Assembly: GCA_027604185.1 (NCBI GenBank)
Contig: JADGKB010000023.1
Coordinates: 62,001 to 126,000 of the forward strand
DNA: 64,000 bases
From: Boothiomyces macroporosus
Lineage: Eukaryota > Chytridiomycota > Chytridiomycetes > Rhizophydiales > Terramycetaceae
Direction: 5' to 3'
The notes beneath the pieces are model-generated. The model was given only the letters and a program-made list of their open reading frames with translations. It had not been told where the DNA came from and did not search any database. Positions 2,177 through 63,900 of the stretch are shown here, piece after piece. Position 1 is the stretch's first letter; each line of letters begins with the position of its first letter. The translations under genes were made by a program, and so were the position numbers.

Positions 2177-2882
2177 TCATCTCTTTAATAGAGTCCATAA
2201 TAATCCACCTACACCGCCACCTAGATGTCCGGCATGGTCAATTCCAGTCTTTCTCCTTGTAATCAAGTTGTATAAATCATATGCAGCAACACCACCAATC
2301 GCTAAATAAGCCGGCATGGGGAATATCAATACCATTATTGAAGAGTGTGGATAAATCATTGCGTAAGAGACTGCCAAGCCGGAAATACACCCACTGGCAC
2401 CTAATGAAAACGCGGAATTATTAAAGAATATTGACGAAGCACTGGCTAGCATTCCAGATACGATATATAGCCCCATAAACCCTCTTGCGCCAAGGGTATG
2501 AATCATCTACATTAATATAAACTACAGTTGTCCCAAATTGGTACAGTACAAACATGTTTATACCCAAATGAATAGGCTGGTTGTGCGAAAAGTGTGAAGT
2601 TATCAGTGTGTGAGGGTATTCCAAAAAGTGAGAGTGTAGAGTAAAATGTTTGTACATGAAACGCAGCAAGGAAGAATCTATCGTTTTTATATTCTCTGCG
2701 TATACCCAAGTGAGGTATATCCCAGCATTTAAACCAATAATCGACCAAATAATTGTCTTTTCCGGGTTGTTCCTGGTGTACCTTTGAATAGTATTCAACT
2801 GTCGTTTTCTGAATTGATTTGAAATATTTCTTATTGAAGGAAAGGTTGGTTTGAATGAAAATGAGAATCGTTTTAGAAACAT
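2177..2882 (-). CDS. Mitochondrial rhomboid protease (PARL/Pcp1 type)
   Basis: Two exons (2526-2882 and 2177-2506) joined by a 19-nt intron at 2507-2525 give 228 residues. The catalytic serine is in GASG, the catalytic histidine in DHAGHLGGG, and an HLGINMF segment corresponds to the conserved histidine helix before the active serine. The N-terminus (about 30 residues, rich in Phe, Lys, Arg and Ser, no acids) looks like a mitochondrial presequence. PARL/Pcp1 rhomboids sit in the inner membrane and cleave transmembrane substrates such as dynamin-like GTPase precursors. Several hydrophobic helices support an intramembrane enzyme. Spliced phase is exact: the exon ends FGTT and resumes MIHTLGARG. 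Confidence 0.88.
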
Positions 2883-3967
2883 TTTTTGAGATTAGGAAAG
2901 AACGGAACGGATGCGGAAGAATAGGAAATCTATAATATCTCTGTATAACTAGAAGAGGTAACTCTAATACCCATTGATTGCAAAAGTTTTAAGTGCGTCT
3001 AAGTGGTTGATCATTCAAGTTGAATTTATAACTATCCAATACCAAGAATATCCTTCATCTAAATACAGCAATGTCAAAGATCGTAAAGGCCAAGTTGAAG
3101 GCAATTTCCAATGTAGCAAATAACATTCGTAATTTCAAAAGGTGGCAGCGAGGATTTCCATTGCGCTTTTAATTCATTCCAAAATCCATCTTTAGCCAAG
3201 ATACCATAAAGCAATATTTGTGATTTAGTGCGTTGTATTTGGTATCGTATGATCCTTAAAGAATCAAGAATTTTGGAAAAATCTGGGACAAATTCTTTTG
3301 TATACTCTATTTTGAACAGAAAGAGGATTTGTTACTTTCTATCCTGTCAACCGATCGATCAATGGTTCACTTTCCCATTTGTTTTCAAGGATATCCTTCA
3401 TTTACTCTTTGCCTTGATTATTTCAAGTACGGGGTCGAAACATTTGTGTTGGTCCGTCTAGGGCACGCTATAATTAAACTAAATACAGACCTCCAGCTCG
3501 GGAATAGATAGATCTTCAAGTTATCTTCAAATTCATATATTTTAGTCACGTGATCCCGGAGATTTATTTTCAAAAAATTGCAAAAAAACTTGTACTTAAA
3601 GCTGCATTATTGTAGAGGAATGATTTTCAATAGTTATTTCTCTCTATCATTACAGCAAGATAAGATTACAGTCTGATTGGCCCAGATTATAACGGTGTGC
3701 GCACAATGTTAATTCTCTGACTTCAGACTGTTACATTCTAATTTTACTATTGAGTTATGGTTATCATCTCTATTGAGTCTTCTCGATAGTATTGGATGAA
3801 TACGCAAAGGCGCTGGCAAGGGTTTCTGTAACCACATACGGGTCAGAATTCCTTTTGAATAATGATTACCATTTCAGTATGTTCGCGAGTCTGTAATTAT
3901 CTTTTAGCCTAATTCAAGTCATATGGCCATAGGTTAAAAACGTCATTCACCATTTTAATTAATTTAA
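2883..3967. other. 1.1 kb intergenic region, no secure gene
   Basis: It separates two divergent genes, so it should hold both promoters. A small frame at 3072-3173 (plus strand, 33 residues, Lys-rich, ATG to TAA) and open stretches near 3228-3511 were seen, but neither shows a family signature or consistent splice joins. They may be gene relics or chance frames. The rest is AT-rich without recognisable structure. Confidence 0.4.
3546..3553. promoter_or_regulatory. Palindromic E-box TCACGTGA
   Basis: The 8-base palindrome TCACGTGA is a full bHLH/bZIP-type E-box (CACGTG core). It lies about 415 bases upstream of the FAD oxidoreductase start and 660 bases upstream of the rhomboid gene. Function is inferred from sequence only; a match of this size can arise by chance. 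Confidence 0.3.
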
Positions 3968-5290
3968 ATGCTAGCTGCTACCCCAACCCCGTCTGCTTAC
4001 TGGCTAAAAGGAATAACCAACCCTAGACCAAATTCAATCTGGGCAAAGACAAATGTCGCTATTATAGGTGCTGGAATTACTGGTGGAAGTGTTGCATTAC
4101 ACCTGGCAAAATTAAATCCAAACATCAAAGTAACCGTATTAGAGGCTAGAGGAATATCTGGCGGTGCGACAGGTAGAAATGGCGGATTATTATGGCCAAG
4201 TATGCCAGATAGATGGAGCAACTTGGTAAAACAATACGGACTGCCAAAAGCCAAACAATTGATTGAATTCTCAATGATCAATGTAAGAGAAATCGAAGCA
4301 TTTTGCAATAGCTTACCTAAAGATGTTGAAAATCACCCCAAGTTGGAAAAGTTTCCCAATGGTGCTGTTCATTTGTTTACAGATATCAAGGAACTTGAAG
4401 AGTGGAGAAAGGAAATTGCTGAAATGAAGAGTGTTGGCGGGTGCTTGGATATTGGTATTTGGGACAAGAAGGAACTAGACCAGAGACTTCAAATCAAGCA
4501 AGATTTTGTTGGTGCTGTCCATGACCGTTTAGGTAGTCCAAGATTAACGATAGCTTACAGAGTCCGGCCTGCCTCTTTAGTTTACCATCTCATCAAAGAA
4601 GCTGGAAAGTTGTTTGATCAAGGAAAAGGAGAGCTGAATGTATTCACTGATACCAAAGTAGAAGCTGTTGAAAACGTTAAAGAGGGTCTGGAAATTAAAA
4701 CTTCAAAAGGAACCTTGCACGCAGATACAATCGTCTATTGCACAAACGCATTTACCAACGACTTGTTACCAAGCGCAAATATTACTCCAATTAGAAACCA
4801 AGTTGTTGTTACTGAACCAATTGATATTCCTTTTGATTTTGCTATTACCGCCAATGCCGGATATCAGTACATGTCTCCGAGGGAAGACGGTAGAATAGTT
4901 TTGGGTGGATTCAGATACTTGGCGCCAAACCAGGATGTTGGCCAAGCAGATGATGGTGTGCTTAACCAAACAGTGTCTAAAGCTCTTTCTAACCACTTGC
5001 CATCGCAATTTGAATCTTTGAAAAGCGTGAATATTGAAAATGAATGGGCTGGTATTATGGGCTGGACTACTGACCGATTCCCGCTAGTCGGACCAATCCC
5101 TCATCTGCCAAATCAGTATATTGTAGCAGGATTCTCTGGTCATGGTATGCCAAGAGCACATTTATGTGCAAAAGCAGCAAGTCAAATGATTCTTGGTGTG
5201 GATGTTGATGATTATTTCCCTGAATCTTTTTCAACTATTGATAGATTCGGAAAAGATGCTAGAAATATTTCGTTCAACTCGCACTTATAA
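3968..5290 (+). CDS. FAD-dependent oxidoreductase of the DAO family
   Basis: A single exon of 440 residues. The dinucleotide-binding motif GAGITGG lies at 34-40, followed by the second FAD contact region ending GGATGRNGG near residue 65-73, and a C-terminal FAD-binding stretch with FPLVGPIP and GFSGHGMPRAH. This layout matches the glycine oxidase / D-amino-acid oxidase fold, in particular the fungal and bacterial proteins that oxidise amines or amino acids. The real substrate cannot be told from sequence. No signal peptide is obvious. The stop codon is 10 bases from that of the convergent P2X gene, so transcripts must overlap. Confidence 0.85.
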   Translation: MLAATPTPSAYWLKGITNPRPNSIWAKTNVAIIGAGITGGSVALHLAKLNPNIKVTVLEARGISGGATGRNGGLLWPSMPDRWSNLVKQYGLPKAKQLIEFSMINVREIEAFCNSLPKDVENHPKLEKFPNGAVHLFTDIKELEEWRKEIAEMKSVGGCLDIGIWDKKELDQRLQIKQDFVGAVHDRLGSPRLTIAYRVRPASLVYHLIKEAGKLFDQGKGELNVFTDTKVEAVENVKEGLEIKTSKGTLHADTIVYCTNAFTNDLLPSANITPIRNQVVVTEPIDIPFDFAITANAGYQYMSPREDGRIVLGGFRYLAPNQDVGQADDGVLNQTVSKALSNHLPSQFESLKSVNIENEWAGIMGWTTDRFPLVGPIPHLPNQYIVAGFSGHGMPRAHLCAKAASQMILGVDVDDYFPESFSTIDRFGKDARNISFNSHL

Positions 5291-5300
5291 AGAATTGCTT

Positions 5301-6703
5301 TTATTGATTATTTTCTTGATTTGTTTGGATGATTGTATATTGAGACTCTCGAGGCTGCTGGTTCATTCTATCTTCTCGAAGATCTCCATTTAATCTTTTT
5401 TCCAATTCTTCTCTGTCCATAGTTTCAAGTCGCGCGGAAGCTTGTCGATGAATCTCTCTGTTTACCATTTCATTAAACAATTCAGTTTCTATTTTAGAAA
5501 GAAATACCTTCGAATTTAGCTTCGCTATAATTCTTTCTGTTTGGTAAAAAGTAAATCATGATATAATCGACTAGTACTCCAGCAATAGAAAACATGGCAA
5601 GTGCGGCAACCACGTTGTTAATGAATGCCAAAAAGTTGAAAATACCAATTGTTCCTGTTTGTGCAAATACAAATCTGACACCGTGGCGATCAAAAATGTT
5701 GTAAGAGCCGTCTGGATTGTACTGAATTTCAGTTAATTTGAAAAAAGATCGATCAATCATCACTGGGAGGTACTGATACAGTATATCTGATCCAGCGTTC
5801 TTGTACGAAATGGGTACTAAATTAAAAGGATATTACTAGAAACTATCAAACCCTCTGAACGAATAGGTTCATTTGGTGCCGCACTGTCCGCGTTAGATAC
5901 AGCATCAAAACTGAAATTTCCGTCGCCACAGTAACTGGCTTCCATTAACTGGGGAAAACTGACTATGTCTAGTGAAGTATTAAATGGTCTGGCTTGTCTG
6001 TAAGCACCATCATAGATCCCAAATCCTAATGCGCCACGGTCGCATGAACGGGTAATCTGTCCAGTCATATTCTGAGATGCGACTGTTCTAAATGCAGCAG
6101 AACCAAATGCAAACTTGCTTTGGACTCGGACACTAAATTAGCAAAAATTACGTATGGTCAATTTGAAATGTCAGTGATTCAACATCTGCCACATAATAGG
6201 TTTTTTTAGCTCCTTTGACGTTATTTCCCGAGCAGTCTCTTGTAGTGGGTATCGACAAATTACAACCAGTTGGGGCTGGAACGTTTGTAATGGAGACTCT
6301 TGTAGTAATAAATAATACTCCTTGTTCTCCTGCATATGGATAAACTATCTGGTCAGGCGTCCAAAATACACAACCGTCGGGGTTAAACGGGCCTTGAATT
6401 ATAAAGCATGTACCTGGGCTGCAATAGGTTGGAACGGTTGATGGGATTCCGTTCCCAAACCGGACAGTTGTTCTTACGCTACTTCCAACAGGCGAAAGCA
6501 ACTCCATATAACTCCCTGTCGTAACCTAATTTAGTATTTAATCACCATATTATAGATAATGAATGCTGTAATCAGAATTACTGCAGAATGGTAGATGAGT
6601 GCAAGTCTGTAATCCTTTACCACCACAATTTTAGCTGAGGTATAGCTAAAGCTCTTGATGCTACGGTCAGCATATTTGCTTACAATGAGACGACTTTGTT
6701 CAT
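5301..6703 (-). CDS. P2X-type ATP-gated channel, copy A
   Basis: Seven exons (6684-6703, 6546-6660, 6414-6525, 6152-6392, 5837-6132, 5508-5816, 5301-5488) give 426 residues; introns are 23, 20, 21, 19, 20 and 19 nt. P2X hallmarks: a first helix after KIVVVKDYR; an ectodomain with WTPDQIVYPYAGEQGVLF, matching the D-x-V-x-P...LF-V-x-T region of P2X; HGVRF; a second helix (residues about 325-350) and directly after it Y-S-E-A-K, the YxxxK motif that stabilises P2X channels. P2X proteins are trimeric cation channels opened by ATP; in protists several are intracellular. The 21-nt intron at 6393-6413 has no stop and keeps frame, so naive translation would insert seven false residues. The tail is 62 residues, charged. 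Confidence 0.88.
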
Positions 6704-6757
6704 TTCCAAATTCAAAAAAGCAAAAATGGAGGCACAGTCGAAAATTACAAAACAGCT

Positions 6758-8067
6758 TTATTCTGGTTTTGACACTTCCACGATAGTGTCTTTTTCTTTC
6801 TGAGCTCGACGGTCGACTTCTCTCTGGACGGCTTTGAGGAAATCTGCAGTTTCTAATGTTAGTGAATGCGACCTTCAAACTTGGCTTCAATGTAATTTCG
6901 TCTGTCAGGCAAGAAATGAATCATCAAAAAGTCAACCATTGATCCAGCAATAGAAAATAGAGCCAAGCCGGCAACCACATTCATAATGAAAGCAATAAAG
7001 TTAAAGATACCGATAGTTCCTGTTTGTACAAGAATGAATCTAATTCCGTGACGATCGTAGACTGTATATGAGCCATCCGCGTTATATTCAATTTGAGTTA
7101 ATTTGAAATACGATCCATCTATGTTTGCTGGCAAATACTTGTAAGTAATATCTCCTCCAGCATTACTGTAAGAAATTGGAACTGGGTATTAAACAATCTT
7201 ACTAGATACAATCAACCCGTTAGAGCGGATAGGTTCCCCTGGCCCAGCACCGTCTGCCGTTGAAACTGCATCAAAACTAAAGTTTCCTGCCTGGCAATAA
7301 CCAGCTTCCATCATTTGCGAGAAACTCACAATATCTAATGCAGTGTTAAAAGGCCGAGTAGTTCTGTAGTTATTGTCATATACTCCAAAGCCTAAGGGGC
7401 CTTTATCACACGAACGAACAATTTGCCCAGTCATATTTTGAGAGGCGACAGTTTTAAATGCTGCCGATCCAAAACCATAACTACTTTGTACTCTTACACT
7501 ACATTTAAAAGTAATTACGTATGATCGATTTGTATAGTGAGGGATTCCACGTCAGATACAAAAAATGTTTGTTTTACTCCTTTCACATTGATCCCTGAAC
7601 AATTTCTGGATGTTGGAATTGAAAGACTACAGTTTGTTGGAGCAGGGATATTTGTAATAGAGACTCTTGTGGTGATAAACAACACACCTTGTTCCCCAGC
7701 GTAAGGGTAAACAATTTGATCAGGAGTCCAAAAGATGCACCCGTCGGGATTATACGGCCCTGAAATCAATTAAAACGTACCTGGGGTGCAGTAAGACGGT
7801 ATATTTGTAGAAATAGGGAGGCCAAATTTGAGAGTAGTTCGAACCGATCCACCAACTGGAGTCAAAAGCTCCAAATAACTTCCAGAAGATATCTGAGTTA
7901 AGCAGTTATAACCATATTGTAAATAATATAAGCCGTAATTAAACACAGGGCAGTATAGTAAATAAGGGCAAGACGAAAGTCTTTAACCACCACAATTTTG
8001 GAAGACGAGTAACTCAGGCCATAGATACTAGCGTTAGTTTTTCTTACATTGATTTGATGTAATTCAT
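6758..8067 (-). CDS. P2X-type ATP-gated channel, copy B
   Basis: Seven exons (8048-8067, 7913-8027, 7781-7892, 7519-7759, 7203-7498, 6873-7181, 6758-6852) give 395 residues; introns are 20, 20, 21, 20, 21 and 20 nt. The first six exons have exactly the same lengths as in the tandem copy A (20, 115, 112, 241, 296, 309), so the gene was duplicated with all introns; only the last exon differs (95 against 188 nt), giving a shorter C-terminal tail. The same P2X landmarks are present: KIVVVKDFR, WTPDQIVYPYAGEQG, HGIRF, the second helix and the Y-I-E-A-K copy of the YxxxK motif. The stop lies 54 bases upstream of the copy A start. Strong lysines of the vertebrate ATP pocket are only partly conserved, so affinity may differ. 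Confidence 0.88.
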
Positions 8068-8321
8068 TTGTGAATATTTTTAGGTGAATCTGTCCTTTTT
8101 AAATATGGCATTCAAAGTGCAACGTCATTAACAACAATGCAACATAAGGAAACAATGTATTTTGAGATAAAGTTGATTCTCTAATCGTAATATACGAATT
8201 CTACATCAGTTGAACCCTCATGACAGTTCCTTTCGTGTTTCTATTATTTTCATTGGTGACAGACTTTTTCAAAATGTCAAATCGCGTTCTGTGATTGCAA
8301 TAAAAGAACCGTAAAAAAGAT

Positions 8322-10519
8322 TTATTGCAAATACATTTTCTTAAATTCAGTACCATATTTAGCGGAAAATGCCTTGGGTTTGTTCTTTAAAGTTGGCGTC
8401 AAAAGGTTGTTTTCCACTGAAAACGGTTCACTTTCGACTACAATATCTTTTGGAATTTCAATTCGCCGCATTTTCATCTAATTAAAGAAATAATTACCAA
8501 TACAGCCTGTTCTTTCATCCTTTCCATCAGCATTCCCTTGACTTTTGAGGACTGCAACAAGGTTTGATAATCACCTTCAAGCTGGGTTTCCTTTGCCCAT
8601 TCACTTAATAACTGTTTATCTGGAACAATAACAGCAATAAGGTAGGATTGAAGTGATTCACCATGAACATAGATCTGAGAAAAGTGTGGGCACTTTAGCT
8701 TTGCAGCAATTGAATTCAAAGCCACGAATTCTCCTTGAGAGAGCTTAATTACGTTGTACATGCGATCAATTATCTTTAGTGTAGAGTTTTCAAGGATTTC
8801 TCCAACATCTCCCGTTAAAAACCATCCGTCTTCAGTAATAGCCTGCTTAGTCTTGCCTTCATTTTTGTAATATCCAGCAACTACTCCTGGTCCACGAATG
8901 CAAATTTGCCCCCTTGGATTTGGTGAATCAGTCACCAAATATCCCAATTCTGGAATATCAATCAATTTATATTCAACAGAAGATAATGGTACCCCAACAT
9001 GGCTTCCGTAGGATTGGTCATAGTCTCCAAATTGAGTGACAAAGCCCCCAGCACAGGTCTCTGTTAATCCATAGCCTTGCAATACATTTGCGCCGAATAT
9101 AATTCGCAGATATTCGGTAACTGTTGGGTTGATTGGGGCTCCTCCAGAAACAATCAAACGAGTATTTCCACCAATCACTTTTTGGAATTTACTAAAAACC
9201 AACTGATCATAAATAGAATTATTCCTCAATCTTCCATTTTCCAGCATTACCTTTTTTCTTTTATATGATAGTTCATACAAGAGCTTGTAAAAGAAGGAAA
9301 GTGCTTTTGCTTTCTGCTGAATACGATCATGCAGCTTGTTGATCACCAGCGGTACACTAAGAAATATCTACAATGAGTAAAAGTATACGGAAGGTTTGAA
9401 CTTTTCCAAACTTTCAATCAACTCTGATGAAGTTCCATCAAAAACTTCAATTTGACAACCTTGCGATGCCATTGTATGCAAGTTTAATCTTTCAAACATT
9501 AGCGAGATTGGCATCTACCGTTAATGTGACATTACAAATGAAATATGCTTGTCACTATGCTGAATTCGATGCTTAATTGGGATAAGATCAAGTGTTCCAG
9601 CAGCTTGAGATACCAAGTTCCGATGTGAGATCATAGCACCTTTTGGTTCACCGGTAGTGCCAGAAGTGAAACATATTGTAAATATATCAGACGGTTGTGG
9701 AATATAATGGGTTTTTTGGATTGATTTCCCAATATCTTCAAGTTCCTTGAATGCTACTAGTTTCACGCCAACTAAATCCGCCTTGTCCCTATTCTCTTCA
9801 TCGATTGTATCCAAATCGCATAAAATTATTTGCTTGGGTTAATGCCGAGTTACTCTAATGCTATTTCCTTTAGCACAAGAATCTAATATCTTTTCCAAGC
9901 ATTTTGTTGAAGTGATGATGCATGTCAACTCTGTATGATTCAAGATGTAATGCAAATCATCACCATCAAAAGACTCATACAGCGGAACAGACACCAATCC
10001 AAAAGTTAAACATGCTCAATAAATGATCACTTACCATAGTCTGCAATTATCCATTCAATACAGTTCCCAAGAAATATTCCTACAAACTGATATGAGAACG
10101 TCTCACGGTTAACCTCCGACTTTGGCTTCAGCTTTACTCTGTCAATCAATCCCTTTCCAAATGCTTCAACTCGATCTGCAATCTTTGAAAAGCTGAATAC
10201 ACTGTCGTTTTGGCTTAAAAAAGGCTTATCTCCAAATTCCTTTACTGCATCCCAAAACAATTGATACGCAGTAGTTTTGTTTCCCAATGCATCCAGAAGC
10301 GGAGTTCCATGATATCTGTTCTTATTTCTGTAAATTGCGGATTCATTGGGCTTCCTAGTCCTCGTAGCCTGAATTAAAGAGCTGTTACCACCGCCTGTTC
10401 TCTAAATGCAGCTGGATGAACGTCTGGCTCTGGCTTGGAAGCCAATAAACTTATAACCACTGGATTACAGACTAATTACCGATTGCCGACCCTAAAATTA
10501 CTGACCAAGTGTCAAACAT
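8322..10519 (-). CDS. Long-chain fatty-acid-CoA ligase
   Basis: Eight exons (10480-10519, 10389-10459, 10035-10368, 9854-10014, 9536-9832, 9389-9514, 8498-9367, 8322-8477) give 684 residues, typical of eukaryotic ACSL/FAA proteins; introns are 20 or 21 nt. The ATP/AMP-binding motif [10 protein letters not shown] is in exon 5, the [12 protein letters not shown] motif (A5) and [10 protein letters not shown] (A7) are in exon 7. The reaction activates fatty acids to acyl-CoA with ATP for lipid synthesis or beta-oxidation. The N-terminus has a short hydrophobic segment (residues 5-20), which fits membrane anchoring as in other ACSLs. Acyl-chain preference and organelle cannot be read from sequence. 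Confidence 0.92.
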
Positions 10520-11611
10520 TCTGAGATGATTTCGAAAAAAGTTTAAAATAAAACAGCAAATATTAATACCACAATTCTTACAGGTGGACTCTGTAAACCC
10601 AAACACAACTGTATGTTCGCTGTACTATCCATAGTTGAAATGAATCGTGATTCTTGGCGAACATTGAGCCACATGACCATCTGAAACCTGTAGAATCAAC
10701 AATATCGGGTCAGACCATATGATAAAATCAGCAATACTGGGTCAAACTAGTTGTGTTATATCTGTAAATTTCATTAGAAGCAGATGGGATTGTATTTCTA
10801 GATATCTCAGGTATTGGTAAGACCGCGATACACTAATTTGTAGAAGCGGTAATTTTAGTAACTTTGTATTTAGACATTGTTCGAACTTGACGTTGGTTTA
10901 AATTGATATTCAAATTCATGCAAACTTGAATGTACAAAGAACAACAGGAATCCCGTTTCGTATTATGAATTCAGTTCTTTGAAATGTAATAGTGCAAGCC
11001 TAAATACTCGTCTTTCGGTAACCCCTAAAAGAAACGGAATCTAAACTAAACAATTTCAAATGCGGAAACCCCATCCCAATGATATTTCCTACCCTTTACC
11101 ATATTCCTGCAATTAAATTATTAGATTTGGTTGAATGCTTTGGAATAAAGCAAAATTTATCAGCGCTATTCTCGCATCTCAACTTTGCAAGGAAATTGAT
11201 ATTCTTCAATCATTGTACATTCCTGAATAATTTAGTTGCGGCTACTATTGTTGTCAAATAAGAAGCTTAATTGATTTTGAGGGTACAAAAATACAACTAA
11301 CGTATGACGTAGATCGCGATTCATATTTTGGTATGCTGGCATTTATTAAAACTAATGTATTATGATAGATAAATTATTACCGTACCTGATATATGTTTAT
11401 AGCAGCATTTTAGCTTAGTTGGCATCTGTTAGCACCATTGGTAGTAGAATATTTGTCATTTGTATAATTACCCTTCAAATCACAGTAACCCTTCAATCCG
11501 GGTAGCATCTACTAATATGGCCATTTCTTGACTATGGTTGTTTACTATGTAATGAACAATCACTCATTGTCTTTCATTTACAATGGAAATTGTTGTTGAA
11601 AATTTTTAATT
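10520..11611. other. 1.1 kb intergenic region
   Basis: It lies between the divergent acyl-CoA ligase and the second family A gene, so it should hold both promoters. A 60-codon frame at 11079 is the only open stretch and shows nothing recognisable. A small imperfect direct repeat is listed separately. No RNA gene was recognised. Confidence 0.4.
10695..10749. repeat. Imperfect direct repeat, two units of about 23 bases
   Basis: Two copies of a CAATAtcGGGTCAgAC-like unit occur at about 10695-10717 and 10727-10749, separated by about 9 bases (the second reads CAATActGGGTCAaAC). The shared GGGTCA core resembles nuclear-receptor-like or bZIP half sites only by chance. It sits 180 bases upstream of the acyl-CoA ligase start and may be a regulatory duplicate. 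Confidence 0.4.
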
Positions 11612-12543
11612 ATGGACAGCGTCACTCTAACTTCAGTATCGGTTATCACGCTTACTTTTATAGTTTTAGTAGGCGAAGCGGGATATTTTCTTCGGGATGT
11701 CAATTCTATGAGAATTGCTCCAATAGGCTTGTTTGCCCAGATTACACTTTGTGCCACAAGAGCTCTCACTCTCATGATTGAATTACTAATTCCTGGTGTG
11801 AATTGTGTGCTGCTGGGCAATTTGGGGATGGCAATTTATGGTACTTCATACTAATGTAAGCCCTTTGGATTACTTGTTTGGATTCTGTGTTGCTAATTCG
11901 AGCCAGAACCTTTTTGCAGTTCTCTGTCAGTTCGGAAGTGAATAAGATATATACAGGAGTATGTATTGCACAAATAGCGCTATCATTTGCTATCCAGCTA
12001 TACGTCGCGTCCACTGCATATAATCTGCCTTTCAATTTGCCATATTGTATCATTGTGGCCAATTTCAGCCCTCAAACAATCACTTTGATTAACCGGTGTA
12101 TTCTGTACGCATTGTATGCCTATCCCTTTATTGCAAAAGCATACGCTTCTAAAAAAGACACAACTACAAATGCCTCTTCCTCAGACTCTAAAATTTGGGT
12201 GTGGCTCGGAATCAATAATTGCATATTCACGCTTTCAATCATCGCAATTGAATTGGTGGCAGCCGTTGTTGGTAATATTCCCAGCTTGGTCAATTGGCTA
12301 ACTCTCTTCTTTTCTTGTGTCAACTTTATCGAATCCAACATCTTGCTTTTGATTGTCGATGATACAAAGAAGCAAATCAAACAGAACTCTCAAAACAAAT
12401 CTGGATCTGATGCTAAAACCCGCACTGCCAAGTCACTTGTGAATCTCAAGAAAAGTGCTCAGGGTATTGATCAACCCGGTGCTTCAGGCGCGGAGTCTGG
12501 AAATCCTGTTACCAGTAAGCGCCAGGCTGTTGAAGAAGATTGA
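11612..12543 (+). CDS. Seven-helix membrane protein, family A copy 2
   Basis: Two exons (11612-11840, 11861-12543) around the 20-nt intron gtacttcatactaatgtaag give 303 residues. The join restores MAIYALWITCLD, matching the uninterrupted MEVYAIWITALD of the copy at 327. Seven helices are visible and a 70-residue polar, Lys/Ser-rich tail follows. The helix 1 stretch MDSVTLTSVSVI is also found in the broken fragment at 1328. Function is unknown; the family is receptor-like in topology. The family is represented only by these two genes and the fragment in this window. Confidence 0.8.
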
Positions 12544-13768: not shown

Positions 13769-13784
13769 CTTAATATACACTCTT

Positions 13785-14677: not shown

Positions 14678-18572
<3,895 letters not shown>

Positions 18573-53874: not shown

Positions 53875-54116
53875 GGTGAAAGATTTACGCGTCGTTCGTT
53901 TGGAGAGATGAAGCATTCAATACCAAACCCTCTAAATGATGCTTGTAAACTATATTCGCCTTATATTACCATGGTGGTTCCGTTCAGCAATATTGGGGAT
54001 GAAATTATAGTAGCTCTCTAATACGACTTTAAATCTGTCTCGCCTTCAATAAATCTCTGTCTCGCCTTCAAATTGATAAAGATATTCTTTGGACAGGGCT
54101 CAATGTTTTTACCAAA

Positions 54117-54637
54117 ATGGAAATTGATCGAGACTGGATCAACCAAACAAGGCTGTTATTCTGTAAAAGAAACGAATTCCCAGAGACGAAAAATATGATC
54201 AATTCCGACGGGACTTTGAATCAAGAATATTTCCAGCCTCCAAAGGGAATGGTATTAACGGAGCCGATTGTCAGGCAGTGGACAGAGAAACAAAAAACAC
54301 AGTTGATTCAAGGAATAGCGGAGCATGGGATAGGGCAATTCAGAAGAATTTCTCAAACTCTATTACCAGAGTGGGTATTTATTTACTGATCGAGACACCG
54401 CAAGAATTAAGACTAAAAACTATTCGATTAATCGGAAGGCAGAATCTTCAGCTATACAAGAATTGGAAGGGATCGGAAGAAGATATCAAACGGGAATACG
54501 AACGGAATAAAGCGATTGGGCTAAAGTTTGGCTGTTGGAAGAATAATTGCCTTGTGTACGATGACGACGGAAAGGTATTGAACGAATTGAAAGTATTTGA
54601 ATTTCTAACTGCAGGCCAACAAAAAGCAGAAAACTAG
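54117..54637 (+). CDS. SANT/Myb-domain protein
   Basis: Two exons (54117-54374, 54395-54637) around the 20-nt intron gtatttatttactgatcgag give 166 residues. A SANT/Myb-like helix set (VRQWTEKQKTQLIQGIAEHG, FRRISQTLLPEWTPQELRLK) follows a conserved YFQPPKGMVLTEP leader. The rest is charged (KNWKGSEEDIKREYERNK, FGCWKNNCLVYDDDG). Similar small SANT proteins occur in flagellated eukaryotes and fungi, but I do not know a function. It may bind DNA or chromatin. The gene starts 240 bases from the divergent SPEF2 gene. Confidence 0.7.
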
Positions 54638-54704
54638 TATATAATAATATAATTCCTACCAAAGGATAAACAATTTATTCTCCAAATACTCTCTTGTATT
54701 CAGC

Positions 54705-55830
54705 TTAGTCTATATCTTCGTCAGAATCAAATTCTTCATTGGCAGTAGGTGCTGCAGAAGGCGCCATCGAAACCTTTCCGCTTGCGCTGGTTTCTGTTCT
54801 GATCTTGGTTGTTCCAGGCTGTTTTGGATGGTCAGACCATCCCTCATTGAAAATGTAGGAAAATACATTTAAAATACCCCCCAAATTAATACTGATATTC
54901 ACCAAGATGAATACCCAGTCTGGTCTGTAATCAAACAGATGGCCAACAACATCTACGGTTAGTTAAAACTATACATGGAACGGTTCCGGACCATTGCATA
55001 AAATCTATGGTTAATTAGAAAGTACAGTTGATAATGTAGAACATTGTCTTTTTTACTGTTCTTCGCTTTAGCTCAGCTTTCCTGTCAATCTTTGGCAGAG
55101 CAGAAGGCTTGCCATCAACGGTTGAAGGCATCATTTCAGACTGCGCAGTTGCCATTGTTAAACTGTCAATCTTTTTAATTACAAGAAAGAAACAGATGGC
55201 CGTAATGTTGAACAACCCTACTTCAACACAACCCATAATCCAAGCCAGTGCTTTAGTTCCAGTGATTTTAAAGTAACACCTACTGTTAACGCTCTATAAC
55301 CAATATAAGCATGGGCCAGAAAATGGAGCACCAATAGCGGCAAAAACAAATGCAAAAACGGAACACATTGCGATAATTTTCCAATCCCAAGCTCCAGTAT
55401 TGAAATGCCAATCTCTGCAGATTGTCAGGTAGCTATTTACAGCTATAGAGGTAGTAATGGCCATATTCAAAAAAATACCAAAAGCGACGTAAGCTGCCGC
55501 CATTTGACATCCTAAATTCTGAGGTCTCGTATGTCCCCAAATCAACCCATACCCTTGATTATTCATATGGCCAACATATAGCATTATATCTGTAATCGCA
55601 ATGTACATGGGGAACCGCACTTGTGCTGGGCAACTCCCTCTTAATCTATATCTATTCCATGCTCGATAGAGAATGTATAACGAACCGAGGAATCCAAGCT
55701 GCATCAGTGGCCATCCTATTCCGTACCTAATTCAGTTTACCAAATACACATAATAATATCCCGGCATCGGAACCATCATAATTGTCGGGTCATCCCAATC
55801 TGGAGTGTCTTGCAATGCGTATTGAGACAT
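54705..55830 (-). CDS. Seven-helix membrane protein, family D copy 1
   Basis: Five exons (55748-55830, 55301-55726, 55026-55279, 54975-55004, 54705-54952) give 346 residues; introns are 21, 21, 21 and 22 nt. Exon 4 has only 30 nt. Family marks: LQDTPDWDDPT at the start, PMYIAITDIMLYVGHMNN in helix 2, WGHTRPQNLGCQMAAAYVAFG before helix 3, TGAWDWK before helix 4 and NISINLGGILNVFSYI in helix 7. Seven helices, then an acidic tail. It has introns near the N-terminus and in the GTVPY region that the two sister genes lack, and lacks one that both have. Receptor-like, function unknown. Confidence 0.8.
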
Positions 55831-55989
55831 TTGAGCTTTCGACTGATAATCTTGAGAGAAAAAAGTAAATCCTGTATGCCCGTGAAAAACAATCATCATT
55901 ATGTCATCACAATCATAAACAATGCTCACCTGCAGAATGAAACAATCAATTATCAAATAAAGCAAATTTATTCTGAAGTAGCGACGCGG

Positions 55990-57001
55990 TCATGTAATTT
56001 GTGTAGAGACTACCGGGTCTTTCTGTTCTTTCATGGTTGGCGTGTCATGGCTGATGCTTTTTGAATCTTGCTTGGTATCAGTGAATCCCTGATTAGCGAT
56101 AAAGCTAAACGCGTTTAATATTCCTCCAACGTTAATTGATATGTTGACTAGCACGAATACCCTGTGGTCAAGATAATTTACCATGTTGGTCGATACTCGA
56201 ACAGATGCCCTATCGAGTAAGGAATGGTTCCCGTCCATTGACAAAAGACTAGATTAATACTGATTACAATAAATGATATAAGGTCTAATCTTCTTTACCG
56301 TCTCCTTTTTCAGAAAGATCTTCTTTTCTGCTTTGCCTTGAGTTCTAGCTGATATAGAGTCTACTTTGCGGTATATGAAATAGAAGCAAAATAGGGTAAT
56401 ATTAAATAATGTAACCTCGACAATTGTAAATAGCCATGCAAATAAATTCACCCCGTCGATTTTGAAATAACACCTAAGTCAAGACCAGATACCAGTAATA
56501 GCAAGGACCGGAAAAAGGAAAACTGATACCGGCCATTATCAACGCGAATACTGCACATCCAGAAATGAGTTTCCAGTCCCACGAGCCTGTATCAATATAC
56601 ACTTCTCTACAGACATTCAAATAAATATTTGCCACATAAGAACAAGTGATACACATGTTGATAAATACTCCAAAAGTAACAAATGCCGCCGCAGTTTGAC
56701 AGCCGATATTGTCCGGACGAGAATGACCCCATATTACTCCGTACATTTCGTTATTCATATGCCCAACGTACAATAATATATCGGAAAACGCCATATACAT
56801 TGGAAATCTAACTTGCGGTGGAGGGTTTCCAGTCGTAAATACTCGTCTTAACCCCCGGAATACTATATACAGCGAGCACAAGAAATTAATCTGCATCAGA
56901 GGAATACCAATTCCATATACATAATAATATCCTGGTATTGGAACTGGCTGGATCGTTGGATCATTCCAGTCAGGAGTGTCTTGTAGTGGAAATGACGACA
57001 T
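55990..57001 (-). CDS. Seven-helix membrane protein, family D copy 2
   Basis: Four exons (56493-57001, 56268-56473, 56182-56248, 55990-56161) give 317 residues; introns are 19, 19 and 20 nt. Exons 1 to 3 have exactly the lengths of copy 3 (509, 206, 67). The family marks LQDTPDWNDPT, FPMYMAFSDILLYVGHMNN, WGHSRPDNIGCQTAAAFVTFG, TGSWDWK and NISINVGGILNAFSFI are present. The C-terminal tail is short and charged. The ATG at 57001 was chosen to match the sister genes; the frame is open further upstream. Confidence 0.8.
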
Positions 57002-57347
57002 TGTCAATGAAGTGGAAGAACTTAATAAACTCCTTTTAAAATTGAAAAACGTGGGCAATTCATTTAATTATAGATCGAGGCTATATATTTCCAGGAGCGA
57101 AATTATCAGAGTTCAAATCAAGCGTTGCTTACTTTTTGCATATACATGACAGTAGCATGGCTATATAATACAGAGATAGCGACTGTAATATTGCCGAATC
57201 GCACTCGCAATTGTCTTTCCAAAACTACAGGCTGTTATGCAAGGAATCGCGACAGATGGATTACGTTGGTAGCAAACATACTTTTAATAATTGACGGTAC
57301 TCATTAATGAAAGAATCTGTCGAGATTTCCAGTTAGATTATCGTAAG
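57002..57347. other. Intergenic stretch within the family D array
   Basis: Roughly 345 bases between copies 2 and 3. A 60-codon plus-strand frame at 57125 shows no family signal. This is the promoter region of copy 2 and downstream region of copy 3; nothing else was recognised. Confidence 0.4.
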
Positions 57348-58363
57348 CTATTTATTCATTGATTGCACCTTTGTTACTGGACTCTCCTTTGCTGATTTTA
57401 CCTCTACGGATGTGATGCTCCTTGGTTCTACTTTATCGTCAGAGACCCCTTGATTGCTAATGTAACTTTTAACATTCAGTATTCCACCGAGATTAATAGA
57501 GAAACAAACTAGCGCAAATACCCTACGATTAAATCCACCTACCACGTCGGTCTGTAATCGAATAAATGGCCTACTATATACGGAACAACTCCAAACCACT
57601 GGAAGAAAACTACCGTTAGCTAATATTACAGTAGATAATGTACGGTCGAATTTTCTTTACCGTTTCTCGTTTCAAAACGGATCTCCTTGCCATGGTTGCT
57701 CGGGATGCTGTAGATATAGAGTCAACTTTGGCGTAAATCAAATAGAAACATATAGCGGTGCTACCAAACAAGGTGGCTTCTACCACAGTAAATATCCAAG
57801 CAAACAGCTTCCCGCCATCTGCTTTCAAATAACACCTGCATTATCAAAGCTTACCAGTAATAGCAGGGGCCTGTAAATGGAAACCCAACTCCTGCCATAA
57901 TGAGCGCGAATGCAGAGCATACGGTTATTAATTTCCAGTCCCAGGGCCCAGTATCAATATAGATATCTTTGCAAACATTGAGGTATATACTCAAGACATA
58001 CGAGCATGTAATAGACATGTTCAAGAACACCCCAAATGACACAAAGGAAGCTGCAAACTGACACCCAACATTCGCCGGTCTGGTGTGTCCCCAAAGAAAC
58101 CCATACAACAAGTTATTCATATTACCAACATACAATAACAAGTCTGTGATTGCTGTATACAAGGGAAATCGTACATGCGTTGGGCAGCTACCTCGTAGAT
58201 AAAGTCTCCGGAAAACGCGAAAGACTATGTAGGCACAGCACAGGAAATTTATCTGACACATTGGTATAGCTACTCCATATACATAGTAATATCCGGGGGT
58301 TTCAATTAGTTGTATTGTAGGATCATTCCAATCGGGAGTATCTTGCAATTGGAATGACGACAT
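57348..58363 (-). CDS. Seven-helix membrane protein, family D copy 3
   Basis: Four exons (57855-58363, 57630-57835, 57543-57609, 57348-57522) give 318 residues; introns are 19, 20 and 20 nt at the positions of copy 2. The family marks LQDTPDWNDPT, FPLYTAITDLLLYVGNMNN, WGHTRPANVGCQFAASFVSFG, TGPWDWK and SINLGGILNVKSYI are present. Helix 5 to 6 loop carries VLKRETVKKIRPYIIY, shared with copy 2. The conserved WDW, GC and RP residues would be candidates for structural roles. Ligand unknown. Confidence 0.8.
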
Positions 58364-58445
58364 TTTGTAAAATGATATTAAACAATATTTTTGGTGAAAT
58401 GGTTCAGTAGGCTTTGTGGGCAAGTAAGCAAAATTGAAGTATTTA

Positions 58446-59881
58446 TTACCAAGAATTCATCATGAATTTTTGCACTGCTGCCAAAGCTTGATATTGGACA
58501 TCAGTATTCTTGTGGGCCATTAACCCCATTACAGCAGTTTTACCGCCAGTTTCAACCAAAACACTATTTTAATCCAATGTTTACTTTTTCGCATTGTTTG
58601 CGTATTTGCAATATTGTCCCAAGTCATATGCTGCGACAGACAACACTGTCGGGTCCTCACTAGTTTTGATAATGTCTACCAAAGTTCTATTATTAATATG
58701 AATCAACTTGACCAGTTCGAATTGGTTATCATTCAGTTTGTTGCTATTTAGTTTCCAGAATTGTTCCGATAGGTGTGGAGGTGACCATTCAAGTCTCCTT
58801 GACAATACTTCGGTAGAATATTCATCAAACGTACTGGCGTTAACTAATGTTTACGATAAAGAAGCGACGTGGTGAGATAATTCTTCTCTGACATACATCA
58901 AATCTTCAGTTATTTCTGGATCTGACCATTTACGGACAGACAGGGTTTCAATAACACCCAATAGCTTGTGGCCCAACATTGGAATAATATTCTCTGTTGG
59001 TGCATTGATGAGCATATTCTTGAATGTAGAAATTACGATTCTTACTACCTTTTCTTTGATTGCCGATTTAGCAATATCTCTCAATACTGGTATAACATGA
59101 TATTTCCTAATGTAAAGAATAAATTACTTTTCCAGATCGGCAGCTATTTCCTTGACAAATGACAGCAACCAGATGGAATAAATTGCTTGGTACTGAACTT
59201 GCGGTGACTGTCCAGCCTTGTTCAAGATGTTCAACAGCCTGAATTAGTATTATAGTACGCTAAAACACCATCGGCCTGTTTAACAAATTCTTTTCTATAC
59301 ATATTAATTGCCAAGAGGGATTGCAAAAATTGCAAGCAGATGTCAACAACATTTGAATTGGTACTGGCCAACTGAAATACGACCCAAGTAAATAATTCGG
59401 TAGGATCAGCTGGGTAAGAAGAATGGGATTCTCCCAATAAGAATATCATGATCTTTGCCGCTTTCAACTGAATATACTCGTCTTCCTTTGACAATAGTCT
59501 GGTATTAGCAACAGATACTTGTTGAATAAACTGAATACAGACTGATCAGCCAAAAACAATTGCGCAACTCCATCTTGCTGAATAAAATCATCAATCAAAA
59601 CCAGAATCGATTGCAGTGTATCGACCCGCGACAATTTGTTCAACAAAGCAAGGAATAGGGTAACGTACTGCTGTTTATCTGTAGTTCCGATTTCAAATTG
59701 TCGGATGAGTGTTAATTCTTGCTCATTAATCAGAGATGCTTTTTGATATCCCTTGGTTAAGAAAGCGTACTTCCCAAGGAATCGTTCGACTCTTAATTAC
59801 ATTGGTCTGATCCAAGAGATAATCGTTGTGGCTGCTGATGAGCGGTGCGTCGATGCTGACATCCTCTTCCTTTTCTGCCAT
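58446..59881 (-). CDS. VMA13: V-type ATPase subunit H
   Basis: Seven exons (59771-59881, 59519-59751, 59259-59498, 59128-59238, 58855-59106, 58585-58833, 58446-58563) give 437 residues; introns are 19, 20, 20, 21, 21 and 21 nt. The start region VIKSRTIPWEGYQKASLI spans intron 1 and is typical of subunit H; the C-terminal domain has RRLEWSPPHLSEQFWK and DPTVLSVAAYDLGQYCKY; ending GLMAHKNTDVQYQALAAVQ. The protein is an all-helical HEAT/armadillo-like solenoid in V1 that silences free V1 and couples the assembled pump that acidifies vacuoles. Confidence 0.95.
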
Positions 59882-59942
59882 TGCGCGATTTGATTATTTA
59901 AAATCAAGAAAACCAACTGTAAAAAGAAAATGAAAAAAAAGT

Positions 59943-60356
59943 TTATTGAAGATTGTACAGTTTATCCGCATTCACAGTAAAGACAGAAGAAACCCATGAA
60001 TCAGTGTCTCTGTATCTCTTTCCTTCAAAGTGTATTTCCGCTGTTCTTCCGTCTTTCCCTTCAACTGTAAAAGTCAAATCTGCTACACCTTCTGGCACAC
60101 TACAATATCCTTTAACCCGATTAAATATCGATTGCTTGTAAACCAATCTGTTTCCCAATACTTTGGATATCTCTGGATGAGCTTCAATAGCGTAAATAAT
60201 TCCTCTGAATACAGCAGTGTTACTTTTCTGGTTTGAAGTGTTGTTGAGAATGGTGTTGATCCAGAATGCACCGGCTAAAAAGGTAAGTGGACCAGCAACT
60301 ATTGGACGTCTGAATTGAGCCAAAAATCGTTTAAATAACGGAGGCGGTGTGTTCAT
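59943..60356 (-). CDS. COA1-like mitochondrial assembly factor
   Basis: A single exon of 137 residues. A basic, acid-free N-terminus (FKRFLAQFRRP) precedes one helix (AGPLTFLAGAFWINTIL) and a soluble domain with HPEISKVLGNRLVYKQSIFN, ending in a beta-rich part (ADLTFTVEGKDGRTAEIHFEG). This is the layout of COA1/TIM21-fold proteins that help cytochrome c oxidase assembly in the inner membrane. The assignment rests on fold-level features, so it is moderate. It is the nearest upstream neighbour of the V-ATPase gene on the same strand. Confidence 0.7.
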   Translation of the reverse strand: MNTPPPLFKRFLAQFRRPIVAGPLTFLAGAFWINTILNNTSNQKSNTAVFRGIIYAIEAHPEISKVLGNRLVYKQSIFNRVKGYCSVPEGVADLTFTVEGKDGRTAEIHFEGKRYRDTDSWVSSVFTVNADKLYNLQ

Positions 60357-60390
60357 GATTTTATTTTTGTAAAAATTTAAATTACTCTAT

Positions 60391-61054
60391 TCAAAATTCC
60401 TCATACTCGACAGATAGCCCGCAGCTACATTTCAGTATATCTCCGTCTTGCTGATAGTCGTGCTTGTGTTCTTCTTCCAGTTGGCGAGAATTCCACAACG
60501 TCGTTCTGGTTTTCTTTCTCAATTCATTCATTTGCTTCTTATGCTTCTTTACTTTCCGCTCCTCTTTGATTTTCTCTTTCTTTTCAAATTCCTTATCTAG
60601 CATTTCTTCCGATCCATACTTGTTGAATGCAAATTGCTCTACTTGCTTGCGGAGGTACAGCAGCATATTCGAATAGGTTGATTTATGCGGATTTGGCTTG
60701 ATCCAAACCGGAAGTTTCTTTTGGTCCCGCAATTCGCCTTGATTAGCTTAACTTACTCTCAGTTAAAAGATAATCCTGTCGGCACTCTGTTTTCGTTAGC
60801 AGGGAATATAATTCTGGCTTTTCCTTTTTACAATTCAGACATACTTGTTCCTTGTAGTACTTGTAAATGTTTACGTCAATATCTATTGATTCGCAGTGCT
60901 GACACTTTAATCCTTGTTCAACAAGCTGGACTTGCTCTTGTTCATTCTTTTGTTCAGTTTCCTCTTGCGGCAACAGGAATCCTCCTCTGGTATCTTCCAT
61001 CGTCGTCAAATCATATTCACAGTATTTCAAGTCAATTTTTCGTTTTTTGAACAT
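60391..61054 (-). CDS. DNA repair protein XPA/RAD14
   Basis: Two exons (60757-61054, 60391-60737) around the 19-nt intron gtaagttaagctaatcaag give 214 residues. The zinc finger is CQHCESIDIDVNIYKYY with a second pair CLNC; LLTKTECRQDYLLTESEL matches the DNA-binding domain, with its last residues restored by splicing. The C-terminus has the HxH...CxCG part (EHKHDYQQDG, LKCSCG) also known in XPA. XPA verifies and holds damaged DNA in nucleotide excision repair and contacts RPA and TFIIH. Shorter than human XPA (273), mainly in the N-terminus. Confidence 0.9.
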
Positions 61055-61101
61055 TTCGAAAAATAATTATGCAGCCAAGGAAAATTAAAAGGAAATAGGG
61101 T

Positions 61102-62205
61102 TTATTTTTCAACAGTTATAATGGCATCATTTTCAGTGGTAGGAGGGCGGAACTCTAGGTTTGTTGGTTGCAAATCTATAATGGTTTCGTCCTTGTCCTT
61201 CTTTGGTCTAGCGATGGTCTTGCTTCTGTCCCGAAGGAAAAAGTAACCGTTCTTGGCATCCGCTGCAATATCTGAAAAGTTGAATGCATCCAGGAATCCA
61301 CGCACGGGGTTGGTTTGCTTTCCTTCGACTACAAACGGAGTTACTTTGAACGCCCAATAATGTACAATGGTAGCCAATGCCATTTCTATGCAGATAATCA
61401 AACTGGTCAGATACATTGAATATTCATTAACATTCACAACATTGTTTCCTTGAATATATCCAAAGTACACAAAGCCTTTTATCACCAGCACTAGCCAGAA
61501 CTGAACGAAAATAACTGCTTTGACAGAGAGGAACTGGAATAGCGTTCCCTCTCGTTGAATTTCGTGATGAACTGTAACGTAAAATGTGATTAAAGCGTAC
61601 ATGGCTATTGTAACAGAAGTCGCATTGAAAACCTCATAGTAAAAGTGTGCGTATCTATAACTGTTTGAATCTACACAGAATTTCCCCATCCACTCTGCAA
61701 TCAAAGAGATGAAGGTAAAAGTGATTCTTACTACAATATACTGAACCACTCCTGCCCTACAGTATCCAATAAACCGCCTATCTCCAGGATTGTAAGTAAA
61801 ACATAACAGCGGAAACGGTAATCGTTTATCATCACTGAGCATCAGTTTACGCTTCAGCTCGTCTTCATTTTCAGCTGCGTATTCCAAAATTAAAGAGAAA
61901 AAGTTCCATACAATGAATGCTTCATAGCAACTAGATATTACAGCCAAATAAACAAACGACTTGATTGAAAAGTAAGACAGAGCAGCACAGATTGCATAAA
62001 CTGGTACCATAAACAGAATTCTTGTTATTGGCCTCTGGAACCGGACGTAATTGTAGTTCTTCCAGTGAGTATACATCAAATTTACTGAGAAAGCAGTTGC
62101 AAAGAGGGCACATCCTGCACTGGCGGCAAAGCCTTCTCTCCATCTAGGATCGCTATAGACTATTTCATTAGGAGTATCTGGGGGGCAAGTAGAGTTCCAA
62201 AGCAT
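61102..62205 (-). CDS. TMEM184/Ost-alpha family membrane protein
   Basis: A single exon of 367 residues from the ATG at 62205; the frame is open 75 bases further up without ATG. About seven helices. Family landmarks: QRPITRILFMVPVYAICAALSYFS, CYEAFIVWNFFSLILEYA, GVVQYIVVRITFTFIS and FVQFWLVLVIKGFVYFG. Members (TMEM184, Hfl1 in yeasts) act on vacuolar or plasma membranes; Hfl1 links vacuole membranes to Atg8. The C-terminal cytosolic tail (RDRSKTIARPKKDKDETII) may hold an Atg8-interacting stretch near NLEFRPP, which is speculative. Confidence 0.88.
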   Translation of the reverse strand: MLWNSTCPPDTPNEIVYSDPRWREGFAASAGCALFATAFSVNLMYTHWKNYNYVRFQRPITRILFMVPVYAICAALSYFSIKSFVYLAVISSCYEAFIVWNFFSLILEYAAENEDELKRKLMLSDDKRLPFPLLCFTYNPGDRRFIGYCRAGVVQYIVVRITFTFISLIAEWMGKFCVDSNSYRYAHFYYEVFNATSVTIAMYALITFYVTVHHEIQREGTLFQFLSVKAVIFVQFWLVLVIKGFVYFGYIQGNNVVNVNEYSMYLTSLIICIEMALATIVHYWAFKVTPFVVEGKQTNPVRGFLDAFNFSDIAADAKNGYFFLRDRSKTIARPKKDKDETIIDLQPTNLEFRPPTTENDAIITVEK

Positions 62206-62421
62206 GGATATTTTGATTACTTGGGGCTTAAATATGGCAAACAAAAACAGTGGCGCACTTTGTGCATTTCCAAATTTCAAAGAGAGTCAAAGAGCACTGC
62301 CAAATATGCTCAAAAAGACTGGGATAAGATTGGGTACAAAAAACGTGTGCCAATGTAAATAAATGTATAAGTGAAATAAAGCTGGTGGAAATTGTAGCCC
62401 CAAAATTTTGACATTGATCTA

Positions 62422-63900
62422 TTAATTTCTATGGAGATTAGCTGCAAACACTCCTACAGCTGAAATGCATGCACCTAATATAAATACTAAGCCTGGCATT
62501 TTCATACTAACACCTAGTTCCCACACTAGTCCACTAATGGCAGGGGAAAATGTTCTGGCAAGTGCGGAAAGTGTACTAGCCAATCCATGTGCAAGGCCTA
62601 GATTTTGCGGAACTTGGGATTCTGTGATTAATAGCATAACAGCAAGGTATGCTAGAGCTTCTGAAATCCCTATGCCAATCATGATCAATAATATTACAAT
62701 GAATCGCAGCTTTTCAAGACTAGATAATATAGTGATTAATAAAAACATGGGTATTAAGAGTAGCATGCCGAATTGATATGTTGTTTTAGGAGTTTTGAGG
62801 AATTGCAGGAACCGATCGAAAAAGAATAATTGTGTGATGAGTTTCGAGCTTGCGCTGATGGTAAACGACAATGCCGTGTCTCTGGAATTCATTTCTATCC
62901 CGCCTGACTGTTTCGAGGCAGCGAAATATAGAGGCAGCGCGGTAACATAGCTCATATTGACATAAGCGATAAGACAATATAGTAATATTGGAGTGAGTGT
63001 TTTCCATGACAGAAATATAAACTTTGGTGCATGAAGCGGCTCTTCTTCGTCGTTTTGATCTTGCTCCATTGGCATTTCAACTTCTGATCCTGTCGTAGTT
63101 CTCCTTTTGGGTTGGTAGCTATTAATGTCCACCATACTGTCATTCAAACTGTCTGATAATTCAATTTCAAAAGAATCCAAATTGTCTATATCATCCACTT
63201 GCTCATAGGTATTTTTCTCAATCAAATAGAACTTGATTATGAAAAAATCAATCACTGCCAATGCCACTCCGATATAGCAGGTTAATAGATAAGGATATCT
63301 GAATTAGAATGTTGGTCTACCTCCCAAATAAACCATTTTTATCGAAAACCCCTGGATACAAGTCAGCTGGATTCGCTAGTAACCCTCCCAGGAGTGGTCC
63401 CAACATCTGAGTAATACCATAGACACTTCCGTAAAACACATATCCCCAAGTTCTACTCCTTTGGTCTCTTGCTTACATTACAGACGAATTACCAATATCT
63501 CCAATCATCCCCTTCGCAACGGTTGAATTCGCTCCAAAGAATCCTGCCACGAATCGGCACATCCATGTGAGAGCAAAAGATTGACTGAATCCCAATATCA
63601 AAGTCACAATCGCACACGCGATTAATCCCATCAGCAGTATTGGCTAGATTAACAAGTACTCACTTTTCTTCCATACTTGTCTGACGCTCCTCCCCAAACC
63701 ACATTCATTAGAAACAGCGGAAGGTAAAATGCCGATCCTAATAATCCTGCATGGTATCCAATAGCAGACTCTGGTTCGTTGGGTAACAAGAACCGCACCA
63801 TATATGGAAACAACGGTATAATCGTTCCATCTATTACTGCCTCCGGTATCAGCGATGTGAGCAGAATTATGATTTTGTATTTTACATTTGGCGAAGCCAT
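62422..63900 (-). CDS. Major facilitator transporter (ZIF/YCR023C-like), copy 2
   Basis: Four exons (63664-63900, 63493-63643, 63321-63471, 62422-63298) give 471 residues; introns are 20, 21 and 22 nt. Twelve helices. SDKYGRKPILLMG spans intron 1, the same place as the GC-AG intron of copy 1 at 22782. An apparent in-frame TAA near 63477 lies inside intron 2; splicing gives MIGDIARDQRSRTWGY, matching the paralogue. A long acidic central loop (residues about 205-255) is as in copy 1. The copies share the C-terminal half (LLITESQ, LAHGL, SPAISGLVWELGV). Substrate unknown. Confidence 0.85.

Follow-up and report, generated by a model that had tools for sequence, protein, structure and literature searches.

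Can introns of about 20 nucleotides (nt) be the ordinary introns of a fungal nucleus, and what is to be made of interruptions that are longer? The question is raised by a stretch of 64,000 nt from the chytrid Boothiomyces macroporosus (Rhizophydiales, Terramycetaceae), hereafter the window, which lies at C23:62001-126000 of a genome assembly of 15,203,306 bases in 216 contigs. On our assignment the window is nuclear DNA of this fungus. Its genes are interrupted by many short GT..AG segments, which are very probably U2-type spliceosomal introns with a dominant class of 19-22 nt (probability about 0.93). We take the host as free-living because of the isolates listed in PMC11210171, which were obtained on pine pollen in soil and on pollen in an aquatic sample.

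Introns were called on both strands with our own gene finder, which accepts GT..AG introns of 12-300 nt under a flat length prior. The training set was 264 kb, made of the window and twenty 10-kb stretches from other contigs (21 contigs in all). With the flat prior and no splice motif, 305 introns were called, with 24, 35, 11, 10 and 5 at 19, 20, 21, 22 and 23 nt, respectively, and at most 5 at every other length. After training, the flat run placed 245 of 454 calls at 19-23 nt and 52 at 26-60 nt. Simply counting GT..AG or GTA..TTTAG segments at each length gives little signal on its own.

Since a short GT..AG segment can always be cut out to keep a frame open, such calls could be due to chance. 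Decoy dinucleotide pairs also give 182-200 calls, and one of our calls, in the SMC3 gene, proved false. However, the decoys show no comparable length peak. In a motif-free run restricted to 12-60 nt, GT-AG has 144 of 244 calls at 19-22 nt, against 18/196, 18/197, 21/186, 15/200 and 13/182 for the five decoy pairs, whose commonest single length has no more than 12 calls. When all six pairs compete, GT-AG takes 129 calls, 87 of them at 19-22 nt, and the decoys take 21-44 each, with 1-5 in that range. The termini are therefore specific, as in U2-type introns. The peak is also present without coding information: motif scores alone give 36, 31 and 11 strong GT..AG pairs at 19, 20 and 21 nt in the 264 kb, over a background of 2.2 +/- 1.7 pairs per length at 30-100 nt. 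The motif matrix used here was trained on short introns, yet it sets no total length. As most SMC3 junctions are, in addition, backed by independent proteins, chance is a next to negligible explanation.

In the whole genome, the pattern GTAATT-N(0-30)-CTAAC-N-TAG, which allows 15-45 nt, has 52 matches, with 5 in the backward control. There are 27 matches of 19 nt, 14 of 20, 3 of 21 and 1 of 22, and the remaining 7 fall over 26-45 nt. Some of these strings recur (one of them three times), so the 52 matches are perhaps not all independent.

The final model, with a learnt length prior, has 88, 161, 112, 27 and 13 introns at 19 to 23 nt in the 264 kb, that is 401 of 470, with 51 longer than 25 nt. 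At extra loci, the same prior puts 84 of 100 introns at 19-23 nt. These lengths are not independent, because the prior was learnt from the flat run; the controls are. In the window, 109 of 121 introns have 19-23 nt. The original prediction had 99 introns, 98 of them at 19-23 nt and 43 of exactly 20 nt, and the final model again has 43 of 20 nt; both end points of its span (2507-2525 and 63644-63663) are called here too. It had described a nuclear opisthokont with uniformly 19-23-nt introns. The nuclear and opisthokont (chytrid) nature and the peak near 20 nt hold, and the word “uniformly” has to be qualified, since longer interruptions exist. The short peak recurs in the 20 other contigs and, genome-wide, 45 of the 52 pattern matches lie at 19-22 nt. 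The lengths thus form the single narrow peak, below about 25 nt, of an ultrashort class.

Splice signals were compared in the 399 introns that have 19-23 nt and complete flanks. The start is GTAA in 213, and the acceptors are TAG (242), CAG (102), AAG (50) and GAG (5). A YTRAY-like branch motif is present in 323 of these introns, falling to 28% after interior shuffling, with the branch A at +14 in 130, at +15 in 129 and at +16 in 31; counted from the intron end, it lies at -6 or -7 in 269. The caller scores the last 8 nt of the intron, so a cleaner test of the branch is the set found without motif. Here, 69 of 85 introns of 19-23 nt carry a branch-like motif, compared with 24 of 167 calls of 61-300 nt, and the start is GTA in 74/85 and 72/167, respectively.

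The genome has snRNAs for this kind of splicing, namely U1, U6 and two copies of U2. The pairing stretches were read for the U1 5' end, the branch-binding stretch of U2 and the ACAGAGA of U6, and match forms that we take to be canonical. The branch motif is complementary to U2, which carries GTAGTA. Genes for SF1, a U2AF65-like protein, Slu7 and Prp18 were also found. The six-frame match of U2AF65 has 230.7 bits, below the NCBIfam cut-off of 310.3, and its spliced model contains three RRM stretches. Together, the spliced models of these four genes have 13 introns of 19-24 nt and two model calls of 33 and 50 nt. The step-2 factors Slu7 and Prp18 are thus both present next to introns of about 20 nt, which indicates that a short branch-to-acceptor distance need not accompany their loss. 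A search for RED_N gave no match in this genome, and none in the control genomes either.

A different origin of the segments, through translational bypassing, DNA elimination or assembly indels, could be entertained because the evidence here is of sequence only. Against this, the coding strand of the segments shows motifs complementary to U1 and U2, and the matching snRNAs exist. Furthermore, all three phases are used by the 417 introns of 17-25 nt (165/144/108), and 299 of them are not multiples of three. We consider a non-spliceosomal origin very improbable. The density is 1.8 introns per kb of coding sequence (CDS), below the 4.5 per kb CDS stated for the chytrid Gonapodya in PMC8476143, and GC is 0.30 in introns compared with 0.39 in flanking exons.

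At the protein level, the best covered gene is SMC3, where 13 of 14 intron calls are backed by ten fungal SMC3 proteins, in the sense of a gap-free junction in at least part of the aligned set. Among its relatives, Boothiomyces sp. JEL0838 shares 97% identity, JEL0866 86% and Terramyces 74% (over 68%). Support for three introns comes mainly from the rows of Boothiomyces and Terramyces, because those at 17442 and 17298 fall within poorly conserved coiled coil and the one at 15110 within a variable stretch. At 18539-18557, the first junction, the seven more distant complete rows fit the splice and the two from Boothiomyces do not. The spliced histidyl-tRNA synthetase (HisRS) is equal in length to the deposited Terramyces protein, with 94% identity over 100%, and shows no gap at its junctions. 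Lastly, both junctions of a leucine-dehydrogenase-type gene fit, although two gaps of one residue lie next to the second.

Several points weigh against a U2-type class of 19-22 nt as a full account. The introns are predictions from sequence. GT..AG was imposed on all gene models, so that the survey covers these termini only. The U1 match has 68.8 bits (E 3.3e-16), just under the Rfam cut-off of 69.5. One SMC3 call of the final model is false, because its translation, LENQME, is conserved, and one intron of V-ATPase subunit H was missed by the model. Calls whose length is a multiple of three include 50 of 118 without an in-frame stop, which may be false, as one proved to be. Within the window, 12 of 121 calls fall outside 19-23 nt, and the protein check covers one of these, the 40-nt interruption in SMC3. 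Finally, 133 of the 454 flat-run calls are thinly scattered over 61-300 nt, and both penalty settings of the flat gene finder left many long calls. A unit-like short intron is found at the start or end of 50 of these 133 and at both in 13, with random strong-ended segments having a unit-like start in 16% and a unit-like end in 21%. Bridging over two short introns therefore accounts for part of these calls only, the 50 with a unit at an end; the remainder is unexplained and probably consists of false joins. A minor class of longer introns may nevertheless exist besides the 19-22-nt class.

As for the longer interruptions, four of 40-57 nt are made of two or three complete unit introns that abut with no exon between them (Table 1). 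The four were selected because they split, and among the long calls the protein check covers these four. By motif, the SMC3 pair is the weakest array, and the match of the N-terminal MCM7 piece to mcm7-B is modest (E 4.5e-11). In SMC3, in HisRS, in the METTL2-like gene and towards the N-terminus of TOP2, every intron seen with more than 23 nt can be split.

These interruptions could be ordinary single introns, composite in look only, with the first 5' site joined to the last 3' site. This and the unit-wise route end in the same mRNA, and the deposited METTL2-like protein of B. macroporosus is consistent with removal of the whole 57 nt. Zero-gap pairs found by motif only are few, with 4 at threshold 7, of which 2 come from one triple and 1 was rejected. 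The 60 gaps of 1-60 nt have 47 such pairs in total, with 4 each at 9 nt and at 15 nt. Among flat-run calls, of which a minority is checked, a split is possible in 1 of the 12 with 36-46 nt and in 1 of the 17 with 54-66 nt. The split itself, on the other hand, is rare by chance. In 400,000 trials with strong outer ends given free, it occurred in 1.0% for 40 nt (2 units, score at least 3), 0.05% for 43 nt (2 units, score at least 7) and 0.003% for 57 nt (3 units, score at least 3). The genome-wide pattern also has no excess of single introns at 26-45 nt, with 7 matches where the backward control has 5 in all. We rate single introns a little short of an even chance.

The other possibility, which we put forward tentatively and with rather less than even confidence, is that the spliceosome takes only about 18-23 nt. 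Longer interruptions would then survive only as back-to-back arrays of units (19+19+19, 21+19, 20+20, 21+22) separated by zero-length exons, each unit being removed alone by pure intron definition, and such intron concatemers would be a distinct element of gene structure. Four arrays in about 0.3 Mb would extrapolate to perhaps some 200 genome-wide.

A 39-nt “pair” in locus L016 (2276-2314) was rejected, as its second half is presumably coding, judged from DEAH-helicase sequence. A tandem search of the whole genome, made for units of at least 21 nt only and hence uninformative for units of 19-20 nt, gave 2 direct-repeat-like matches, with 1 in the backward control. In the pattern search, short direct repeats at L038 1501-1542 and L039 1501-1548 (units of about 21 and 24 nt) mimic tandem introns. 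Very short exons are found as well, of 5 nt in TOP2 and of 15 nt in the window. A further one, a model call only, is a 3-nt exon ATG (9131-9133) between 21- and 22-nt introns at L016 9083-9155 (+), where the exon ends on either side also carry ATG, a pattern expected from a short target duplication.

Table 1. Features discussed in the text, with positions in the window or in the locus named
Feature	Locus	Positions	Strand	Observation
Introns of 19-23 nt (n=109)	window	254..63663	both	22 of 19, 43 of 20, 31 of 21, 7 of 22, 6 of 23 nt
SMC3 gene	window	14678..18572	-	13/14 intron calls backed: 12 single ones (19-22 nt) plus the 40-nt pair
False intron call in SMC3	window	15056..15076	-	encoded LENQME conserved in Boothiomyces sp. 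SMC3
SMC3 array, 40 nt	window	18377..18416	-	20+20, GT..AG units; 13-residue stretch aligns gap-free with all 40 nt removed; unit scores 4.8/6.8
METTL2-like array, 57 nt	L007	8632-8688	-	19+19+19; HNAWDNV conserved across; unit scores 9.3/10.8/11.0
TOP2 array, 40 nt	L036	2308-2347	+	21+19; ADNK/VRDP gap-free vs DNA topoisomerase 2-alpha; unit scores 6.1/7.5
MCM7 array, 43 nt	L009	89-131	+	21+22; gap-free junction vs mcm7-B from residue 11; unit scores 7.9/7.8
TOP2 exon, 5 nt	L036	2141-2145		between 21- and 19-nt introns; restores RPDTYIG
Internal exon, 15 nt	window	46335..46349	-	between 19- and 20-nt introns; spliced product matches Pfam PTPS, residues 5-139
Histidyl-tRNA synthetase gene	window	46832..48391	+	499 aa after splicing; introns of 21, 19 and 20 nt
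Leucine-dehydrogenase-type gene	window	39463..40815	+	introns of 19 and 20 nt
V-ATPase subunit H gene	window	58446..59881	-	six called introns of 19-21 nt
Intron GTTGATTCATATTAATAATAG in V-ATPase H, 21 nt	window	58687..58707	-	missed by model, read by eye; 7-residue insertion vs solved V-ATPase H (6xbw)
CPC1/SPEF2-like flagellar gene	window	48496..53916	-	19-23 nt in 14/15 called introns; scan covers residues 1-730 of 1696

In the mechanism that we propose for the U2-type introns, U1 would recognise a 5' site GTA(A)TT, and U2 a YTRAY branch motif whose A is found for the most part at +14 to +16, at a distance of 5-7 nt from the end of the intron; the acceptors are mostly YAG. With U1 pairing at +1 to +6 and U2 at about +10 to +16, few bases would lie between them, which makes an early exchange of U1 for U6, or successive rather than joint binding, likely. 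The 3' site would be the first AG past the branch point, with no pyrimidine tract, and the lariat loop would measure about 14-16 nt. Recognition may proceed by intron definition alone, on a minimal substrate, which we infer from the occurrence of 0-, 5- and 15-nt exons. The claim that the spliceosome “must” use intron definition is accordingly softened to a strong suggestion from these exons. Some of the longer interruptions may be concatemers of unit introns, with units removable singly and in any order to the same final mRNA.

Introns of this size are known elsewhere. According to PMC9505925, those of the heterotrich ciliate Stentor coeruleus have 15-16 nt with the branch A at 10/11, and Slu7 and Prp18 are listed as not found. 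The introns of B. macroporosus resemble them in being GT-AG and AU-rich, with a narrow length class and a near-fixed branch A. They differ in being about 4-5 nt longer, with a clear YTRAY motif and with Slu7 and Prp18 present. PMC10245619 gives 16-17 nt for the mikrocytids Mikrocytos mackini (224 introns) and Paramikrocytos canceri, a class that the original prediction, which named Stentor and the nucleomorph as the shortest, had left out. The uniform tiny length and conserved sequence are shared, but mikrocytids appear there as parasites with a highly reduced spliceosome, and the 224 introns of M. mackini stand against about 1.8 introns per kb CDS here. Introns of the chlorarachniophyte nucleomorph, at 18-21 nt as quoted in the same paper, are almost equal in length but belong to a relict endosymbiont nucleus, not to a 15.2-Mb fungal nuclear genome. 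Paramecium bursaria, with a median of about 24 nt in PMC12862383, is ultrashort as well, but a ciliate and slightly longer.

Regarding the arrays, the stwintrons of ascomycetes are nested, so that a splice signal of one intron is broken by another intron, as described in PMC9024468. They share with the arrays a composite intervening sequence and consecutive splicing, which in B. macroporosus is inferred. Unlike in that description, the units here are complete and abut at AG/GT in all four cases. The ultrashort class had been proposed as a candidate for an undescribed feature; the class itself is described, and what stands is that the literature searched held no report of ultrashort spliceosomal introns in fungi, although one may exist elsewhere. 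Within the reach of these searches, neither their occurrence in a fungus nor arrays of abutting units have been described.

Some other genes of the window have similar interruptions. Two adjoining P2X-receptor-like genes (5301-8067, -) have six called tiny introns each, and the first matches Pfam P2X_receptor. A single gene model at 27729-29920 (+) reads by eye as a dethiobiotin synthetase fused to a DAPA aminotransferase, with introns of 20, 21 and 21 nt. Tandem groups of similar multi-pass membrane proteins, of about three members each, were seen by eye at 29953-33925, 40903-43686 and 54705-58363. The best solved relatives of the leucine-dehydrogenase-type protein are annotated as leucine dehydrogenases, which are bacterial enzymes. 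If a bacterial-type origin is true, its two tiny introns would imply intron gain after transfer. Scans of the window for tRNA and Rfam families gave no matches.

Deposited proteins differ from our models at some tiny introns. The METTL2-like protein HK103_005920 of B. macroporosus keeps an 18-nt intron as VLFYNQ and reads through the next one, of 19 nt, to an early stop. The SMC3 of JEL0838 differs at the N-terminus and is short of ten residues next to a tiny intron, and that of JEL0866 lacks four residues beside the first intron. Other junctions in these proteins are correct. This suggests that gene finders place such tiny introns unreliably.

The presence of Slu7 and Prp18 in a soil-isolated fungus hints that neither parasitic genome reduction nor the loss of these factors is needed for extreme intron minimisation, and suggests that tiny introns can do without a nucleus that is parasitic, relict or that of a ciliate. 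As isolates of this fungus are listed, it lets one ask how U1 and U2 act within about 15 nt, and also whether a spliceosome can have an upper limit of intron size.

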